A stretch of 64,000 nt of DNA. Origin: Haloprofundus salilacus. GTDB taxonomy: Archaea > Halobacteriota > Halobacteria > Halobacteriales > Haloferacaceae. Of the stretch, positions 35,925 to 43,782 are shown one piece after another (position 1 is the stretch's first letter; each line of letters starts with the position of its first letter). The translations under genes were made by a program, and so were the position numbers. Where the stretch lies: assembly GCF_020150815.1 (NCBI RefSeq), contig NZ_CP083723.1, positions 806,001 to 870,000 of the forward strand. Direction: 5' to 3'. The notes under the pieces are model-generated. The model did no database searches. It had not been told where the DNA came from and saw only the letters and a list, made by a program, of their open reading frames with translations.

Positions 35925-36024
35925 CTCACGCCCGTCCGTTCGACCCCGTTCGCCGCGCCGGATAACCCACAATTATTTTCTCCATTAGCAAATATTAAGC
36001 GTCGGCATTTCTTAGCCACGAGTG

Positions 36025-37047
36025 ATGACCGAACTCGTAGCCACGACGCCAGGGCTGTATCCGTTGCCCGACTGGGCGAAACAGCGACTCTCGGAGTTGA
36101 AAGGCCACCAGAAAGGCGACCTCGTCAGCGGTGACGAGGGTCCCGAAATCGTCGACGCGTACGACCGCGCCCGCGAAGAAGTCGTCGCCGACCAGACGTC
36201 TGCCGGGGTGGACCGAGTCGTCGAGGGGCAACTCCGCTGGGACGACAACCTCGCGCACCCGCTGACCGTCCACGACAGCGTCGAGACAGGCGGTATCGTC
36301 CGGTACTACGACAACAACAACTTCTACCGCGACCCGCAGGTCGTCGGCGAACTCGGGTTCTCCGGCGACGTGGCCGCGGAACTCGAGGCGACAAAGGAAC
36401 TGCTCGGCGGTGACGACTCGCTGCAGGCGGTTCTCCCCGGCCCGTACTCGCTTTCGGACCTCGCGACCGACGAGCACTACGGCGACGAGGAGGCGTTCTT
36501 GGAGGGTGTCTCGGAGTTCCTCGCCGGTGAGGTCGAAGCGTTCCCCGAGCACGAGACACTGTTCCTCCTCGAACCGTCGCTCGTCGAGAACGCGCCCGAA
36601 GACGGCCTCGACGCGCGAGCGAGCGAAGCCATCGACACGGTCGCGTCGGCGACGGACGCCGACGTGGTCGTCCACAGCTACTGGGGCGCGCTGGAGGAGA
36701 AGGTGTACGCGCACCTGATGGACGCCGACGTGGACGCCGTCGGCTTCGACGTGGTGGCAGGCGACCGCTCGCAGACGCTGTACAACATCAACGAGTACGG
36801 CACGAAAGACAGCGTTGCGCTCGGCCTCGTCGACGGCCAGAACACGCTCGTCGAGTCGCCCGAGACCGTCTGCGACCGCATTGAGTGGGTCCAGGATCAG
36901 ATCCCCGCACAGGAGTTCGACACCGTCTACGCGACGAGCAACACCGAACTGTTCTACCTGCCCGTGAACAAATATCGAGAGAAACTGGCCGCGCTGGCCG
37001 AGGGCGTCGCCCTCGCTCGTGGCGAGGAGACGGAGGTACAAGCATGA
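36025..37047 (+). CDS. methionine synthase-related protein, MetE-like N-terminal partner
   Basis: A 340-residue protein of the UROD/MetE-like superfamily. TTPGLYPLPDWAKQRLSELKGHQKGDL at the start, the VDRVVEGQLRWDDNLAHPL block, VLPGPYSLSDLA and VVVHSYWGALEEKVYAHLMDADVDAVGFDVVAGD are MetE-like barrel motifs. It lacks the full set of zinc ligands seen in the next gene, so it is probably a structural or regulatory partner; similar paired genes occur in other haloarchaea. GTG 36022 precedes ATG 36025. The stop overlaps the next start by 4 bases. AATATTAAG at 35991-35999 is the probable TATA box. Confidence 0.85.
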   Translation: MTELVATTPGLYPLPDWAKQRLSELKGHQKGDLVSGDEGPEIVDAYDRAREEVVADQTSAGVDRVVEGQLRWDDNLAHPLTVHDSVETGGIVRYYDNNNFYRDPQVVGELGFSGDVAAELEATKELLGGDDSLQAVLPGPYSLSDLATDEHYGDEEAFLEGVSEFLAGEVEAFPEHETLFLLEPSLVENAPEDGLDARASEAIDTVASATDADVVVHSYWGALEEKVYAHLMDADVDAVGFDVVAGDRSQTLYNINEYGTKDSVALGLVDGQNTLVESPETVCDRIEWVQDQIPAQEFDTVYATSNTELFYLPVNKYREKLAALAEGVALARGEETEVQA

Positions 37048-38117
37048 GCCGAGACGCCGACAACAGAGCGCAGTTCCGCCCGGACGTGCACGAGAACGAC
37101 CACTTCCTCCTGACGACGGTGGTCGGCAGCTATCCGAAGCCGAAGTGGCTCAACCGCGCGAAAGAGCTCGCCGAGGACGAGGAGGCGCGCTTCGACGCCG
37201 ACAACCTCGCGGAGGCGTACGACGACGCCTCGGAGGTCATCACCCACGAACACGAGCGCACCGGACTCGACACCGTCGTCGACGGCGAGATGCGCAGAAA
37301 CGAGATGGTCGAGTTCTTCGCCGACCGCATCGACGGCTACGAGTTCAACGGTCCGGTGAAGGTGTGGGGCCACAACTACTTCGACAAGCCGAGCGTCGCC
37401 GACGAGGTGGAGTACGACGAACCGTGGCTCGTCGACGAGTTCGAGTTCACCCGCGACGTGGCCTCACGACCCGTCAAAGTCCCCATCACGGGACCGTACA
37501 CGCTGGCGAACTGGTCGTTCAACGAGGCGTACGAGAACGAGGAGGAACTCGCCTACGACCTCGCGGACCTCGTCAACCTCGAAATCGAGAAGTTGGTCGA
37601 AGCGGGCGCGCGCTACGTCCAGATAGACGAACCCGCGCTGGCGACGACGCCCGACGATCACGCCATCGTCGGCGAGTGTCTCGAACGCATCGCCGACGGA
37701 ATCCCCGAGGAGGTTCGCATCGGCCTGCACGTCTGCTACGGCGACTACTCGCGCATCTACCCCGAACTCAACGAGTTCCCCATCGACGAGTTCGACGTGG
37801 AACTCTGCAACGGCGACTACGAGCAGATCGACGTGTTCACCGAACCCGACTTCGAACCTGACCTCGCGCTCGGCGTCGTCGACGCCCACACCGCCGAGGT
37901 CGAACCGGTCGAGGAGATCAAGGAGAACATCAAGCAGGGGCTGAAGGTCGTCCCACCGGAGAAACTCACCATCTCGCCTGACTGCGGGCTCAAACTCCTG
38001 CCGCGCGAGATCGCCTACGGGAAGATGAAGAACTTGGTCACGGCCGCCCGCGAGGTCGAGAAGGAACTCGACGCGAACGAGATCGACCTCGACGCACCGG
38101 TACCGACGGCAGACTGA
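37044..38117 (+). CDS. metE: cobalamin-independent methionine synthase, catalytic part
   Basis: A 357-residue MetE C-terminal-type enzyme that transfers a methyl group to homocysteine. TTVVGSYPKPKWL starts the barrel; GEMRRNEMVEFFADRIDGYEF and PITGPYTLANWSFNEAY follow. The zinc ligands lie in GLHVCYGDYSRIY (His/Cys) and SPDCGLKLLPREIAYGKMKNL (Cys). Bacterial MetE is one 750-residue chain; archaea use a short form like this. The ATG overlaps the previous stop, so both are made together. Confidence 0.93.
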   Translation: MSRDADNRAQFRPDVHENDHFLLTTVVGSYPKPKWLNRAKELAEDEEARFDADNLAEAYDDASEVITHEHERTGLDTVVDGEMRRNEMVEFFADRIDGYEFNGPVKVWGHNYFDKPSVADEVEYDEPWLVDEFEFTRDVASRPVKVPITGPYTLANWSFNEAYENEEELAYDLADLVNLEIEKLVEAGARYVQIDEPALATTPDDHAIVGECLERIADGIPEEVRIGLHVCYGDYSRIYPELNEFPIDEFDVELCNGDYEQIDVFTEPDFEPDLALGVVDAHTAEVEPVEEIKENIKQGLKVVPPEKLTISPDCGLKLLPREIAYGKMKNLVTAAREVEKELDANEIDLDAPVPTAD

Positions 38118-38488: not shown

Positions 38489-38638
38489 ATGCCAGCGATG
38501 AGCACGCTCGACTGGATCGGGTTAGTCGTCCCGTTCGTCGCGTTTTTCGCGATGTTGATCGGCTACTACGTCCTCGAAGGACGGCGGGAACAACGGCTTC
38601 GCGCGGAGTACGAATCGGAGGGTGACCGTGCGAGCTGA
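38489..38638 (+). CDS. 49-residue single-helix membrane protein in front of the symporter
   Basis: The frame begins MPAMSTLDWIGLVVPFVAFFAML, has one membrane helix (about residues 8-30) and a charged cytoplasmic end GRREQRLRAEYESEGDRAS. Its last 17 bases overlap the symporter gene. Haloarchaeal solute:sodium symporters are often preceded by such a small subunit-like protein, so it may assemble with the transporter. Start chosen by TATA position; an ATG at 38498 is an alternative. Confidence 0.78.
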   Translation: MPAMSTLDWIGLVVPFVAFFAMLIGYYVLEGRREQRLRAEYESEGDRAS

Positions 38639-40397
38639 CGGCGCCGCAGGGATACTCCTGCAGGCCGACGGAATCGCGGGAACGATCCTGCAAGCGGACG
38701 GAATCGCGGGAACCGCGGGCACCTGGGTGCTCGTCACGTTCGCGGCGTACCTGCTGATACTCATCGGTATCGGGCTCTACACCTCCCGGTTCATGGACAC
38801 CGTCGGCGACTACGTCATCGGCGGCCGCCGCATCGGTCCCGTCGTGACGGGGTTCTCCGAGCGCGCCTCCGAGATGAGCGGGTGGCTGACGCTCGGCGTT
38901 CCGGGCGACGCCTACTCGACCGGTATCATGGCGTTCTACAACGGACTGGGGATGATTCCGGCCGACCTGTTCGCGTGGGCCGGCATCGCGAAACGTCTCC
39001 GCAAGTACACCGAAATCGTGCGGGCAGTCACGCTGCCGACGTTCTTCGAGTACCGTCTCGGCGACGACACGGGGATGGTCAAGGGCGTCTCCTCGGTCGT
39101 CCTCATGCTGTTTGAGGGCGGCTACGTCGGCGCGCAGATCGTCGCCGCCGGTACCCTCCTAGAGGTGCTCACCGGCGTCGACACCGTCGTCGGCATCCTC
39201 GTCGGCGGCGTCATCGTCATTGGCTACACGTTCCTCGGCGGCTACTTCGCCGTGGCGTGGTCCGACTACTTCCAAGGTGCGATCATCCTCATCGCGTTCA
39301 TCATCCTCCCGGTCATCGCGTTCGCCAACTACGGGCTCCCGTTCGAGGACGTCGCCGAGACGGCGGGGTCGTCGTTCACCAGCATCACCGCCGGAATGAC
39401 GGGGTGGGCGGCGCTGTTCGGCATCATCAGCTACGCCGCCATCGGGTTGGGTGTCCCCGGAAATCCGCACATCATGGTGCGGTTCATGGGTATCGACCGC
39501 GTGAAGAACGTCCGAACCGCGGCGCTCGTCGCGCAGCTGTTCATGTTCGTCGCGTACATCGGCGCGGCACTGATCGGCCTGTACGCGCTCGTCGTCTTCG
39601 GACAGAACGGCGTCGCCGACATCGACAACGCGATGCCGCGACTCACGCTCGAACTCCTGCCGGGCGTCGTCGCGGGCATCGTCCTCGCGGCCGCGCTCGC
39701 GGCCATGATGTCGAGCGCGGACTCCCAACTGCTCGTCGCGACGAGCGCCGTCGTCGAGGACGTCTACCACGGCTTCTTCAACGAGGACGCCACCGAGGAG
39801 CAGTTGGTCCGCTACTCCCGCGTCGTCACGTTCGTCCTCGGCGGGGCGAGCGTCGCGTTCGCGTTCGCCGCCTCCGGGACGCCCATCTACACGCTCGTGC
39901 TCGATTACGCGTGGGGCGGACTCGGGGCTGCCATCGGTCCGACGGTCATCGCCGCGCTGTGGTGGAAGCGCGTCACCGCCGAGGGCTCCGTCGCCAGCAT
40001 GGTCGTCGGGACGGTGACGATGATCGGCTGGACGCAACTGGAGACCGTACTCGGGATGATGAACGCGATGCCGTCGGCGGAGGCGTCGCCGTTTCTCTCG
40101 GGGCTCGTCGGCGTCTACGGGCTGTTCCCGGCATTCATCCTCTCGTCGCTCACGCTGATCGTCGTCTCGCTTCTCACCCGACCGCCGGAGGGCGTCGACG
40201 ACGATTTCGACGTGTTCGAGAAGCCGCTGTCGGCGGTCGTCTCCGAGCGCCAGCGCGGTGGGGCACCCGACTACGTGACCGACGGCGGTCGCGACCGGCC
40301 GAAAGCCGTCACCGAAGCCGACAACATCCGCGCGCACGTCGCCGCGTCGAACTACTGGGACGACGGCGCGGCGGACGAAAAGCGGACGGAGGAGTGA
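38622..40397 (+). CDS. sodium:solute symporter (SSS family, PutP-like)
   Basis: A 591-residue transporter of about 13 helices. GDYVIGGRRIGPVVTGFSERASEMSGWL and GTLLEVLTGVDTVVG, PGNPHIMVRFMGID and AALAAMMSSADSQLLVATSAVVEDVY (sodium site region) fit PutP-type proline/sodium symporters. The start codon is GTG (38622 or 38628) and overlaps the small gene. An oddity is a tandem repeat near the N-terminus: ILLQADGIAGT-ILQADGIAGT, encoded by a 30-bp DNA repeat (38656-38715). Confidence 0.92.
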   Translation: MTVRADGAAGILLQADGIAGTILQADGIAGTAGTWVLVTFAAYLLILIGIGLYTSRFMDTVGDYVIGGRRIGPVVTGFSERASEMSGWLTLGVPGDAYSTGIMAFYNGLGMIPADLFAWAGIAKRLRKYTEIVRAVTLPTFFEYRLGDDTGMVKGVSSVVLMLFEGGYVGAQIVAAGTLLEVLTGVDTVVGILVGGVIVIGYTFLGGYFAVAWSDYFQGAIILIAFIILPVIAFANYGLPFEDVAETAGSSFTSITAGMTGWAALFGIISYAAIGLGVPGNPHIMVRFMGIDRVKNVRTAALVAQLFMFVAYIGAALIGLYALVVFGQNGVADIDNAMPRLTLELLPGVVAGIVLAAALAAMMSSADSQLLVATSAVVEDVYHGFFNEDATEEQLVRYSRVVTFVLGGASVAFAFAASGTPIYTLVLDYAWGGLGAAIGPTVIAALWWKRVTAEGSVASMVVGTVTMIGWTQLETVLGMMNAMPSAEASPFLSGLVGVYGLFPAFILSSLTLIVVSLLTRPPEGVDDDFDVFEKPLSAVVSERQRGGAPDYVTDGGRDRPKAVTEADNIRAHVAASNYWDDGAADEKRTEE

Positions 40398-40398
40398 G

Positions 40399-40926
40399 AT
40401 GGTCGACGCCGCGCCCGTCTCGAACGACGCAGCACCCGTCTTCGACGACCGAACGGCCGTGGGACGGGTCGAACGCGCCGACCTTCCGGTCGTCAGCCCC
40501 GCTGTCTCTCGAGAGGAGATCGAATCGGACGGCCGCGTCGGCGTCGTCGCCTACCCCTACCGCGTCTACGAGACGCGCGTCACGATGGCGCGACCTCTCC
40601 TCGGCGACCGGGTCGCGACGGTGACCGCGAGCGTCGACCGGTCGCGACGGGTGGCGCTCCGCGCCGACGAGTTCCCCGAGGTGGAGACGCAGACGGTGAC
40701 GGACGCTCTCGTGCTCCCGGCGGAACTCTCCTCGGCCGCCTGCGACGAGGAGGCGCGCGAGGCCGCGTTCAAGTGGACGCTCCGGAAGTTCTCGCTCAGC
40801 CGCGCGCCCGACATCGAGTTCGAGCGCGTCGTCGACGCCTACAAGCTGTTCTGGCTCGCCGAGCGCGACGACGGCGACGTAGTTGTCGACAGCGTGCGGG
40901 GCACCGAGCGGTCGCTGGACGAATAA
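40399..40926 (+). CDS. conserved protein downstream of the symporter, unknown function
   Basis: A 175-residue soluble protein, one base after the symporter stop and so in the same operon. It has ISREEIESDGRVGVVAYPYRVYETRVT-like beta-rich sequence, a central TVTDALVLPAELSSAACDEEAREAAFKWTLRKFSLSRAPDIEFE and a WLAERDDGDVVVDSVRG end. No motif is recognised. The tight linkage suggests a role in control or cytoplasmic handling of the transported solute. Confidence 0.78.
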   Translation: MVDAAPVSNDAAPVFDDRTAVGRVERADLPVVSPAVSREEIESDGRVGVVAYPYRVYETRVTMARPLLGDRVATVTASVDRSRRVALRADEFPEVETQTVTDALVLPAELSSAACDEEAREAAFKWTLRKFSLSRAPDIEFERVVDAYKLFWLAERDDGDVVVDSVRGTERSLDE

Positions 40927-41069: not shown

Positions 41070-41972
41070 TCACTTCGCGATGTCGCGACTCTCATCTCCG
41101 GAGACCTGCTTGGGAGGGACGACGACACCGGACCCGGCGTCGTCGGTTTCGACGCGCGTTCCGTGCGAGTGTCTGACTCCGTGCGAGTGCCTGGCGGTGT
41201 GTACACCGACCGTCGCGAGGACGCCACCGCTCAGACTTAGCGAAACGACGCGCACCGCCGGCGGGAGCACCGCGACCGCTGCACCGCCAGCAACCACCCC
41301 GAAGACGAAGGTCGCCTGAATCGCGAGGACGGCGGCGATGCCTCTTTGCCGACTTCGCGCGCCGTAGAGACCGCCGACGGCCGCAGTCTCCCCGGCGGCG
41401 TGGAGCGCGAGCACCAACGCGCCCGCGACCCCGAAGATCACGTTGGCAGCCGCAGCAGTGGCGAGGAGTCCTCCTTCGAGACACCGGTGAACGAGGACCG
41501 CTCCGAACGCCGCGTCGGCCTCAATCTCGCGACCCTCGCGCCGGTATCGCAGACCGGTCGCCGCCACACCGCCGACGCTCATGCCGAGGAGGCCGAAAAG
41601 CGGGTCGTCGAAGAGAGCTGCGATGATAGCACCCCCTCCGAGGACGACGAGTAATGCGGCGAGCGCGCGATTCGGAAACTCTGAGCCGGCCGCACGGCGC
41701 GCGACGGCGACACCGCCGACGAGGCTCACGACGACCGACAGCGCCACTACCAGACCGACGCTCAGCGCCACTCCGGTCGGCTGTCCCCCGGACCCCGGCG
41801 ACTCGTGGGCGATGGCGATATCCGACACTCCGACGGGAGCCGGAACCGCGAGGACGGTGACGACGACGGCGACCACCATCGCGGCGGTGACAGCCGCGAT
41901 ACCGACTGGTCGGATCTGCATGCGGACGCGATCGAGACAACTATGGGTGGAGCGACGACGGGTTCGGGTCAT
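41070..41972 (-). CDS. ZIP-like membrane protein with a His-rich tail
   Basis: A 300-residue protein from ATG 41972, which overlaps the ferredoxin stop (ATGA); M at 41921 would give 283 residues. About eight helices are visible. VLVHRCLEGGLLATAAAANVIFG and LVLALHAAGETAAVGGLYGARS occupy the places of the HxxPEG and HxxxE motifs of ZIP transporters, with Cys-Leu and Ala-Ala-Gly in place of usual residues. The end HTARHSHGVRHSHGTR is His-rich, also a metal-transporter trait. Metal transport is inferred, not proven. It is the third gene of the SBP56 operon. Confidence 0.72.
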   Translation of the reverse strand: MTRTRRRSTHSCLDRVRMQIRPVGIAAVTAAMVVAVVVTVLAVPAPVGVSDIAIAHESPGSGGQPTGVALSVGLVVALSVVVSLVGGVAVARRAAGSEFPNRALAALLVVLGGGAIIAALFDDPLFGLLGMSVGGVAATGLRYRREGREIEADAAFGAVLVHRCLEGGLLATAAAANVIFGVAGALVLALHAAGETAAVGGLYGARSRQRGIAAVLAIQATFVFGVVAGGAAVAVLPPAVRVVSLSLSGGVLATVGVHTARHSHGVRHSHGTRVETDDAGSGVVVPPKQVSGDESRDIAK

Positions 41973-42286
41973 AGCCACGGGTTCTCCGTCAGTTCGGCCT
42001 GCACGTCGGCTCCGACCGCGAGACGGCAGTCCGTGCGCGGTTCGGCGACGCAACAGAGCACGTATCCCTTCCGACACTGTCGCTCCTTGAGCGCTCTCGG
42101 CGGACGACGGTACTCGACCTCGCCCGCTAATAACCGGCCGGTGCACGTCCCGCATGCGCCGGTTCGACAACCGAAGGGGAGCGCGACGCCCGCCCGCTCT
42201 GCCGCCGTCAACACCGTCTCTCCGGGTTCGACGTCGACCGTCGCTTCCCTCCCGTCGAGCCAACCGAGGGTGACTCTCGCGGTCAC
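41969..42286 (-). CDS. [2Fe-2S] plant-type ferredoxin
   Basis: A 105-residue ferredoxin. The cluster motif is C40-x4-C45-x2-C48 (FGCRTGACGTCTG) with the fourth ligand at C78 or C79 (YVLCCVAEP). It is encoded one base after the SBP56 gene and overlaps the ZIP-like gene, so it probably carries electrons for a reaction tied to them. It is unlike the longer haloarchaeal ferredoxins with acidic insertion that serve 2-oxoacid oxidoreductases. Confidence 0.93.
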   Translation of the reverse strand: MTARVTLGWLDGREATVDVEPGETVLTAAERAGVALPFGCRTGACGTCTGRLLAGEVEYRRPPRALKERQCRKGYVLCCVAEPRTDCRLAVGADVQAELTENPWL

Positions 42287-42287
42287 T

Positions 42288-43694
42288 TCATATCCAGACG
42301 TCGCTGGTGCAGTCTGCGTCGGGCCAGCGAATCTCGTGGGCGCGCGCCGGCCCCGCAGGCAACTCCCCGAAGTCGACGAGGAACTCCTCGTCGAGCATCA
42401 TCGTCCCCTTTCGTGGATTGACGTTCGCTTTCATCATCACCGACCCTCGCTCGGCCTCCTCGGGGAAGAACTGGTTGTCCCACGTCGAGTACAGCGACGT
42501 GGTGAAGTACAACCGCTCGCCGTCGAGCGAGAGTTGGAGCATCTGTGGCCCGGCGATGACCGGTCGGTCACGCTCTTCGGTTGCTTGCGTCGGGTACCGC
42601 TCTCCGAACATTCCACCTGCAGAGAGCGTATCGCTCAGTCGTGGGTTCGACGGGTCGCTGATGTCGTACATGTGGACCTCACCGTGAAGCCAGTTCGAGA
42701 AGACGAGGTAGCGGTCGTCCATCGAGACCAGGAGGTCGGTGATGAGACTCGGTACGGGCATCTCCCAGTCGTCGTGTTCGCGCGCCTCGACGTCGATGAC
42801 CTTGTCGGCGTGCCAACTGCCGTCTCGCTCGTAGAAGTGGAACATGTTCGAAGAGAGCGCCGCCCCAACGTAGCCGTGGGCCGATTCCGGACTGTGCATG
42901 AACCGCACTTCGAGCGGAATCATCCCCTCCTCGCCGAGGTCGAGCGTCTGTTTCGGCGTCTGGTTCTCCCAGTCCCAGATGTGGATTTTGTGGCCGTACT
43001 TCCCACTTTCCACGTCTTCGAGGTCGAACCCCGGTTGGTAGATCTTCGGGGCCGCCCACTCTGAAGAGATCATCACGTTGCGACGTGGTTGGTACCAGAA
43101 GTCGTAGTTCATCTCGATATCGCCCGGCGAGTCGAAGCGACCGACGACGTTGAACGACTCGTTCAGTTCGAGGAACCCACCCGGCAGGTCTCCGTCTCTG
43201 TCGCCGAGCATGCTGACGAGGATGCGCCCACCAGGCGCACAGTGAACTGTGTGCGGCGCAGAGAGGCCGTGTTCGAAGACCTCCTCGGGTTCGATAACGG
43301 TCTCCATCTCCGGTTCACGTCGGGTCTCCGTGTCGATAATGTGGAGTCGTGAGGAGCGCTGGCCGGGAACGACGAGATACCGGCGGTCCAGGCCTTCGAT
43401 GTGACACGACGACGAACAGGCGTTCCATCCGAAGTGATGTAACTCGTCGCCCTTGTTTGGCATCGACACTCGGTTGACGATTTCGCTGTACGTCTCCGAT
43501 TGCGGGTCGGTATCGACGACGGCCAGAAAATCCGGCTCGTCGATGTCTGTTCCGACGTAGAGTCCCATCACGTACGCTACTTCTTCCGGCTCGGATTGTT
43601 CGATGGCCGCCTGCGGCGTCGTGTAGCCAACGCCGCTGTGGTCGTGGTGTGCGTGGTGGCTGTCGTCTGTATGATGTGTGTTACCAGAGCTCAT
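42288..43694 (-). CDS. selenium-binding protein 56 family (methanethiol oxidase type)
   Basis: A 468-residue SBP56 beta-propeller. GWNACSSSCHIEGLDRRYLVVPGQRSSRLHIID (C93 and C97), EHGLSAPHTVHCAPGGRILVSMLGD, MFHFYERDGSWHADKVI and GGPQ-like AGPQMLQLSLDGERLYFTTSLYSTWDNQFF are family hallmarks. Some family members oxidise methanethiol to sulfide, formaldehyde and hydrogen peroxide and use copper. The N-terminus HHTDDSHHAHHDHSG is His-rich and could hold metal. A TATA-like TCTAAAATAC lies about 45-50 bases upstream (43737-43746, minus strand). Confidence 0.92.
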   Translation of the reverse strand: MSSGNTHHTDDSHHAHHDHSGVGYTTPQAAIEQSEPEEVAYVMGLYVGTDIDEPDFLAVVDTDPQSETYSEIVNRVSMPNKGDELHHFGWNACSSSCHIEGLDRRYLVVPGQRSSRLHIIDTETRREPEMETVIEPEEVFEHGLSAPHTVHCAPGGRILVSMLGDRDGDLPGGFLELNESFNVVGRFDSPGDIEMNYDFWYQPRRNVMISSEWAAPKIYQPGFDLEDVESGKYGHKIHIWDWENQTPKQTLDLGEEGMIPLEVRFMHSPESAHGYVGAALSSNMFHFYERDGSWHADKVIDVEAREHDDWEMPVPSLITDLLVSMDDRYLVFSNWLHGEVHMYDISDPSNPRLSDTLSAGGMFGERYPTQATEERDRPVIAGPQMLQLSLDGERLYFTTSLYSTWDNQFFPEEAERGSVMMKANVNPRKGTMMLDEEFLVDFGELPAGPARAHEIRWPDADCTSDVWI

Positions 43695-43762: not shown

Positions 43763-43782
43763 CTATCAGTCTGGACTGATAG
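43763..43782. promoter_or_regulatory. perfect 20-bp palindrome upstream of the SBP56 operon
   Basis: CTATCAGTC-TG-GACTGATAG is a perfect 9-bp inverted repeat. It lies 17-45 bases upstream of the probable SBP56 TATA box, the position of activator or repressor sites in archaea, and 9 bases before the end of the next gene. A transcribed hairpin serving as terminator of the 44376 gene is the alternative. Confidence 0.6.

Follow-up and report, generated by a model that had tools for sequence, protein, structure and literature searches.

Introduction

SBP56 enzymes are copper-dependent in bacteria (PMC5739008) and in man, where SELENBP1 is described as a copper-dependent thiol oxidase (PMC10362175). 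In Hyphomicrobium sp. VS, the methanethiol oxidase (MTO) is a periplasmic protein with a signal peptide, encoded in an mtoX-SCO1/senC-mauG operon, and histidines of the SBP56/MTO proteins have been proposed as copper ligands (PMC5739008; numbering via 2ece, PMC10277263). The Rhodobacterales enzymes RdMTO and RlMTO belong to the cluster 1 MTOs, which have methanethiol activity and three conserved cysteines in the motifs GWNACS, HTV/IHC, and (G)DCS/T; when produced in Escherichia coli, two enzymes of this cluster broke methanethiol down, and the degradation of dimethylsulfoniopropionate (DMSP) has been linked to MTO (PMC10936201). PpoB2 of Marinomonas mediterranea (COG5486), a membrane metal protein of a copper-oxidase operon, hands copper to tyrosinase (PMC2855505). 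As regards copper uptake in archaea, a 2008 survey found neither a copper importer nor a copper chaperone (PMC2147054), and for Haloferax mediterranei, CopD and a ZIP of the ZupT type were named as import candidates in a genome study of 2022 (PMC9240420). In this study, we analyzed a 64,000-nucleotide stretch of Haloprofundus salilacus (contig NZ_CP083723.1, positions 806,001 to 870,000; hereafter the window) that carries, on its minus strand, genes for an SBP56 protein, a [2Fe-2S] ferredoxin of the Fer2 family, and a ZIP-like membrane protein. We read the locus as a thiol-oxidase operon of the SBP56 type whose helpers differ from those known before; among them the ferredoxin is conserved, and the divergent ZIP-like protein is optional. 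Haloarchaeal "selenium-binding proteins", found in 136 of 391 genomes, thereby gain a concrete hypothesis and a fixed partner. Neither an SBP56-ferredoxin linkage nor a metal transporter in a haloarchaeal SBP56 operon was found described in the literature searched, which mostly lay outside the subscription journals.

Materials and methods

The main sample comprised 149 listed SBP56 copies and the window, i.e., 150 loci from 133 genomes and 43 genera. For each locus, approximately 10 kb around SBP56 was inspected, or less at contig ends. Genomes G078, G235, and G389, with weak or partial SBP56 matches, and further unlisted matches were left out. Fer2 genes were counted by stop position and membrane-protein genes from all open reading frames (ORFs). 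A second sample consisted of 80 named haloarchaeal SBP56 loci and partly overlapped the first; the contig scan that yielded it matched no organisms other than haloarchaea. The SBP56 tree was built with FastTree from 149 haloarchaeal and 6 bacterial sequences, after the fragment L151 had been dropped. SCO1 and MauG homologs were searched for in 80 of the 136 SBP56 genomes. Beyond the haloarchaea, SBP56 was seen through plasmid records only (74 tblastn matches, of which 40 were listed and 9 opened).

Results and discussion

SBP56 and ferredoxin genes form a conserved pair

The three genes of the window follow one another 5' to 3' in the order SBP56, ferredoxin, and membrane protein (43694-41070; Table 1), and the SBP56 gene is the only copy in the H. 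salilacus genome. A single base (42287) lies between the SBP56 stop codon and the GTG start of the ferredoxin gene, whose TGA shares bases with the ATG of the membrane-protein gene. This ATGA start is also seen in an alignment with the sister species (L090); an alternative start, the Met at 41921, is favored by a codon-based gene caller.

SBP56 occurs in 44 of 86 haloarchaeal genera and in about one third of the genomes searched. Directly downstream of it and on the same strand, a Fer2 gene similar to that of the window was present in 138 of the 150 loci (42 genera, 8 families); in a stricter count, 111 of 114 ORFs started no more than 40 bases past the SBP56 stop. Because any other neighbor family reached at most 37 of the 150 loci, and the frequent ones resemble lineage-wide flanks, the adjacency of SBP56 and Fer2 goes beyond chance. 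The membrane protein was linked to SBP56 in 37 loci (18 genera, 4 families), being accompanied by Fer2 in 25 (12 genera) and standing without it in 12; no locus had neither partner. Among the 80 named loci, Fer2 was present in 69, the membrane protein in 13, and both in 4. Neither was found in L219 and in the plasmid locus L276, where a gene for a PAS-domain protein follows SBP56, so that the rule has exceptions. The preliminary description had read the three genes as one operon. The one-base gap and the ATGA overlap were confirmed, and the triple does recur in other haloarchaea, as the counts above show, but the membrane protein is only an accessory of the pair and in 12 loci it occurs without the ferredoxin.

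Fer2-linked loci were distributed over the whole SBP56 tree. A single clade (support 0.975) comprised the 12 loci that have the membrane protein but lack Fer2. Loci with both partners were scattered, and two Fer2-linked bacterial proteins branched beside the haloarchaeal clade. What is conserved is thus the pair of SBP56 and ferredoxin, and the membrane protein is an accessory that would have been gained or lost several times. Taken most simply, the tree indicates an old pair, with the membrane protein entering and leaving the locus over time. That the three genes are neighbors merely through an inherited chromosomal block, with no functional tie, is hardly credible: numerous flanking genes are indeed common within lineages, but the pair recurs in 42 genera and 8 families with changing flanks, and also in two alphaproteobacteria. 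Pure lineage synteny was therefore rejected, being contradicted by conservation across domains. No SBP56 outside the class Halobacteria was found among the matches listed for 294 genomes of the phylum.

Two variants of the locus were observed. The order was Fer2-SBP56-Fer2 in 27 of the 150 loci, e.g., L033 (5978-6349) and L052, where SBP56 is immediately preceded, on its own strand, by another ferredoxin gene of this subfamily. Locus L149 (G277:C1:2248893-2250266) has an SBP56 gene with an in-frame TAG and is probably a decaying copy.

The ferredoxin and its bacterial counterparts

The ferredoxin scored 69 bits against PF00111 (cut-off, 21), and its cysteines, in GCRTGACGTC and a later CC, follow the pattern CX4CX2C...C. 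The ferredoxins of the window and of the bacterial loci belong to a shared subfamily, with 42% identity and the same C-terminal end. When the window ferredoxin was used as the query in a reverse tblastn search of the plasmid collection, seven records matched, and six of them have SBP56 beside the match; in the seventh, L296 (Natronococcus sp. AD-5), no SBP56 was seen within 8.3 kb.

Among the matches listed, the closest bacterial SBP56 proteins (51-55% identity) came from Rubrobacter, Paracoccus seriniphilus, and Phaeobacter inhibens. No Fer2 is annotated near the Rubrobacter gene (L281), and the gene next to it has a weak ABM match. In P. seriniphilus, the order is SBP56-Fer2-PpoB2, and the PpoB2 gene overlaps Fer2 by 4 bases. 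The third gene encodes a DUF2182 protein that matches the Pfam family PpoB2, "Copper chaperone", with 89 bits, and a gene for S-(hydroxymethyl)glutathione dehydrogenase lies 0.6 kb past it. The third slot is thus filled in Paracoccus by a PpoB2-family gene, whereas the haloarchaeal membrane protein is, so far as Pfam can show, not of that family. More distant SBP56 genes (approximately 39-40% identity; L284, L287, and L295 were opened) have other, unannotated genes downstream.

In P. inhibens, SBP56 is followed by Fer2 (4-base overlap) and by genes for CoA_binding, rhodanese, sulfur dioxygenase-like, enoyl-CoA hydratase, acyl-CoA synthetase, and DmdA-like proteins. The DmdA-like protein scored 377 bits against the DMSP demethylase model (cut-off, 410), and the sulfur dioxygenase-like protein scored 367 bits against part of Blh (cut-off, 625). 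Genes of the DmdA/B/D type release methanethiol. The record in question, pP30_b (L283, L288), is a conjugative plasmid on which SBP56 and Fer2 head this DMSP-demethylation-like cluster.

SBP56 retains the residues of cluster 1 methanethiol oxidases

The SBP56 protein of the window matched PF05694 over the whole model with 643 bits (gathering score, 34), and its closest PDB chain was 2ece (E 4e-110). With the numbering of the proposed copper ligands carried over through 2ece to the histidines listed in PMC10277263, H86, H87, H148, and H151 are present in 148 of 148 near-full relatives and H453 in 147. Three cysteines are kept equally well (C93 and C152 in 148 of 148, C462 in 147 of 148) and lie in the cluster 1 motifs GWNACS, HTVHC, and DC; the third motif reads PDADCTSD in the window protein, keeping DC(T) but not the glycines that precede it in GGDCS/T. 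The haloarchaeal protein thus shares its three conserved cysteines with RdMTO and RlMTO (PMC10936201) and differs from them in CSSSC spacing and in a His-rich tail.

These residues make the haloarchaeal SBP56 a candidate cluster-1-type MTO. Since cluster 1 enzymes expressed in E. coli degrade methanethiol, the same chemistry is plausible for it. An alternative, which we consider rather unlikely, is a copper thiol oxidase whose cytoplasmic task is to oxidize thiols other than methanethiol or to process sulfane sulfur or peroxide. The protein is not an equivalog of MtoX by NCBIfam (NF052453), reaching 137 bits where the cut-off is 650, a result that speaks against the assignment as MTO, and the Fer2-linked Phaeobacter protein reached 151 bits. 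No genes for the metabolism of DMSP or dimethylsulfide were recognized among the commonest haloarchaeal neighbors, which were read by eye and not by a family scan, and the title given to human SELENBP1 is copper-dependent thiol oxidase (PMC10362175). On the other hand, the protein retains the full set of cluster 1 cysteines and copper histidines, and the closest Fer2-linked bacterial SBP56 genes adjoin genes resembling those for DMSP demethylation or formaldehyde detoxification.

The N-terminal tail of SBP56 is hydrophilic. It is also rich in histidine, as the preliminary description had noted for the window protein. The latter feature proved to be general: at least three histidines were found in 142 of 149 haloarchaeal tails, and their histidine content was 21%, against 3.6% in the rest of the protein. 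A simple rule served to choose the start codons, and of the five tails without any histidine, two or more look like wrongly placed starts. Cysteine occurred in only 1 of the 149 tails. In the three closest bacterial proteins (L281, L282, and L283), a CC pair stands just before the same GPGY, in place of the His-rich tail.

Genes for SCO1 and MauG are seldom found near haloarchaeal SBP56

The haloarchaeal SBP56 shares with the Hyphomicrobium system the protein family, the copper-ligand histidines, and genes that would serve a metal center (PMC5739008). The two differ in location and in helpers. The Hyphomicrobium enzyme is periplasmic, whereas reading of the window sequence revealed no hydrophobic signal peptide, and in place of SCO1 and MauG the window has the ferredoxin and the ZIP-like protein. 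In the 80 genomes searched, SCO1-SenC was present in 60, with one listed match near SBP56 (approximately 5 kb, G290), and CCP_MauG was present in 5 and never near SBP56. The earlier remark that ferredoxin and ZIP-like genes stand here in place of the usual mtoX neighbors therefore holds for these genomes, and an SCO1/MauG maturation set for haloarchaeal SBP56 was rejected. The term ferredoxin does not occur in the main text of PMC10936201, nor in the searched text of PMC5739008 and PMC10277263.

The ferredoxin could also be an electron acceptor, with SBP56 working as a methanethiol:ferredoxin dehydrogenase and not as an oxidase. The strict SBP56-Fer2 adjacency, the ferredoxin subfamily shared with bacteria, and the scarcity of CCP_MauG (5 of 80 genomes, never nearby) would fit such a role. 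However, relatives in cluster 1 functioned without a ferredoxin (PMC10936201), and SBP56 loci without a ferredoxin exist; we consider a dehydrogenase unlikely.

The third gene encodes a ZIP-like protein with a putative M1-type site

The membrane protein alone had no meaningful Pfam match. The gathering score of Pfam Zip (PF02535) was not reached: one of 25 relatives matches it with E 0.0015, and the window protein does not. No PDB relative was found by sequence, either up to E 1 with the single protein or up to E 10 with a profile. A tblastn search of the plasmid collection gave no match, and a divergent copy is present on pHTUR01.

The AlphaFold2 model has an N-terminal helix followed by seven long helices, with a mean predicted local distance difference test score of 75. 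In a Foldseek search of the model, BbZIP was the only match with E <0.001, its entries occupying ranks 1-8. With VIA-align 2, the BbZIP entries (5tsa, 6pgi, and others) reached Z 11.0-12.0 and the next entry 8.2. A Z of approximately 12 is below the tool's caution line for helical bundles, approximately 13, where matches can arise by chance; this tells against the fold assignment, and the sequence evidence for ZIP kinship matters for that reason. The family profile picked up haloarchaeal ZIPs weakly, two of five tested scoring 142 and 146 bits against Pfam Zip. In a profile-profile comparison with true haloarchaeal ZIPs (E 2.5e-5, probability 75), HRxxEG aligned with HNxxDG and HxxxE with HEIPQ. 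The predicted fold hence looks ZIP-like.

H162, R163, E166, and G167 (H162 R163 xx E166 G167) and H191 and E195 (H191 xxx E195) are invariant in the 25 aligned relatives. In BbZIP, the transport site M1 contains H177 and E211, and M2 contains N178, D208, and E240; M2 is present in most ZIPs, and its loss lowers transport only modestly (PMC11549095). Mapped by spacing and profile alignment, not by residue-by-residue superposition, the putative M1-type residues are invariant in all 25, and the M2 positions N178 and D208 would correspond to R163 (invariant) and A192 (window protein). The membrane protein thus appears to share with BbZIP the predicted fold and an HxxxE in two successive helices, and to differ from it in the replaced M2 ligand positions and in falling below the Pfam Zip cut-off.

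The preliminary description had called the protein ZIP-like and had proposed a metal-supply system for the enzyme, citing the His-rich ends of both proteins. The ZIP-like reading is supported by the fold match with BbZIP; the Pfam cut-off is missed. As for metal supply, the genomic company described below points to it, and the His-rich SBP56 tail is general in haloarchaea; the C-terminal His run of the membrane protein, although present, is confined to the window and its sister species among the 25 aligned and does not support it.

Genomic company of the membrane protein suggests copper as the likely metal

A profile search found the membrane protein in 49 of 391 haloarchaeal genomes, and 51 copies of at least 79 bits each were analyzed for their neighbors. 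Of these, 36 lie within 2 kb of SBP56 and 15 no farther than 4.2 kb from a copper amine oxidase, with 6 counted in both; the rough chance of such proximity to a copper amine oxidase is approximately 0.0013 per copy. Genome G334 has no SBP56 match; the distances between its three membrane-protein copies and its three copper amine oxidases are 0.9, 1.8, and 4.1 kb. A second copy in genus g13 closes a row of copper amine oxidase, the ammonium transporter Amt, PII, and membrane protein, which runs on one strand in L182, L191, L289, L290, and L292 (in L289-L292, its parts were identified from short motifs and from the coordinates given by the amine oxidase proximity search) and has the amine oxidase on the opposite strand in L200 and L291. 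The makeup of the row suggests that amines are used as a nitrogen source and that this use has a metal supply of its own.

Copper is our best bet for the metal supplied: SBP56 enzymes of bacteria and man are copper-dependent, PpoB2 fills the corresponding slot in Paracoccus, and copies stand beside copper amine oxidases. Several points weigh against this choice. Most of the amine oxidase linkage comes from g13. There the amine oxidase and SBP56 clusters share an island, so tandem duplication may account for much of the linkage, and these cases probably go back to a single inherited arrangement. Of 25 copper amine oxidase copies, just 9 have the membrane protein in their vicinity, H. salilacus itself has no copper amine oxidase match, and 6 of the 51 copies are near neither SBP56 nor a copper amine oxidase. 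Copies of the family with neither enzyme nearby are L183 and L184 (G033 and G127) and L185-L188.

The protein could instead be a general importer of divalent metals (zinc, iron, or manganese) serving Fe-S assembly of the ferredoxin or metal homeostasis and not the copper loading of SBP56. The structurally solved ZIPs matched here are zinc/cadmium transporters, and iron would fit the adjoining ferredoxin. We nevertheless regard this as quite unlikely, given that 12 loci, forming the clade with support 0.975, retain the membrane protein without the ferredoxin, that other copies adjoin copper amine oxidases, and that in Paracoccus the corresponding gene is for a copper chaperone of the PpoB2 type.

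A proposed mechanism

With about even confidence, we propose as the enzyme of the operon a cytoplasmic thiol oxidase that depends on copper, most likely a cluster 1 MTO, with its own redox partner and metal supply. Building on the observed gene order, conservation, residues, fold match, and genomic company, we infer the following steps. Copper would enter the cytoplasm by way of the ZIP-like protein and its one M1-type site (H162, E166, H191, and E195). The His-rich tail of SBP56 would gather the copper and hand it over to the buried H86, H87, H148, H151, and H453. Methanethiol, held on Cys462 as a mixed disulfide, would be oxidized by O2, giving formaldehyde and sulfane sulfur as products. 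Electrons would pass between the [2Fe-2S] ferredoxin and the copper/cysteine center, most likely to reset or reduce the latter, and the ferredoxin would so replace MauG and SCO1.

A narrower version, in which the third gene stands for a new ZIP-superfamily lineage with M1 only, bringing in copper for both cytoplasmic SBP56 and copper amine oxidase, and in which SBP56 is a ferredoxin-coupled MTO that needs neither MauG nor SCO1, is tentative and in our view more doubtful than probable. If true, it would change the view of methanethiol oxidation by adding a ferredoxin partner, a cytoplasmic location, and independence from MauG, and it would offer a candidate answer to how copper reaches the cytoplasmic copper enzymes of archaea.

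The proposed roles of the two helpers meet objections. Two characterized cluster 1 enzymes were active from E. coli without a dedicated ferredoxin (PMC10936201), and the 12 loci of the main sample, Rubrobacter (L281), and two named plasmid loci without a ferredoxin indicate that it is not indispensable. Likewise, 113 of the 150 loci are without the membrane protein, so another route for the metal must exist.

Other features of the locus

Table 1. Positions of the operon genes, of a nearby palindrome, and of the amine oxidase row; positions are those of the window unless a locus is named.
Feature	Position	Strand	Remarks
SBP56 protein	42288..43694	-	468 aa; Pfam SBP56, 643 bits
His-rich N-terminal tail of SBP56	43635..43694	-	residues 1-20; 7 His among the 22 residues preceding GY
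[2Fe-2S] plant-type ferredoxin (Fer2)	41969..42286	-	105 aa; GTG start; Pfam Fer2, 69 bits
ZIP-like membrane protein	41070..41972	-	300 aa; AlphaFold2 model closest to BbZIP
Perfect 20-base palindrome CTATCAGTCCAGACTGATAG	43763..43782	.	69-88 bases ahead of the SBP56 start; possible operator
Copper amine oxidase-Amt-PII-membrane protein row	L182 4994-9348; L191 3256-7633		genus g13

The palindrome upstream of SBP56 (Table 1) may possibly be an operator. None was found upstream of SBP56 in the sister species L090. A conserved palindromic operator was rejected, as no common sequence was seen and the window palindrome is missing in the sister species. A 6-base inverted repeat was present in 56 of 149 SBP56 upstream regions, against 25 expected from mononucleotide shuffling.

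Between the operon and two adjacent genes for cobalamin-independent methionine synthases (36022-38117), the window has two further genes (38622-40926), one for a sodium:solute symporter resembling PutP, the other for a protein of 175 aa that matched no family; neither is at the corresponding place in L090. The methionine synthase pair, its relatives being recognized by sequence likeness only, is also near the operon in L090 and in the g13 island.

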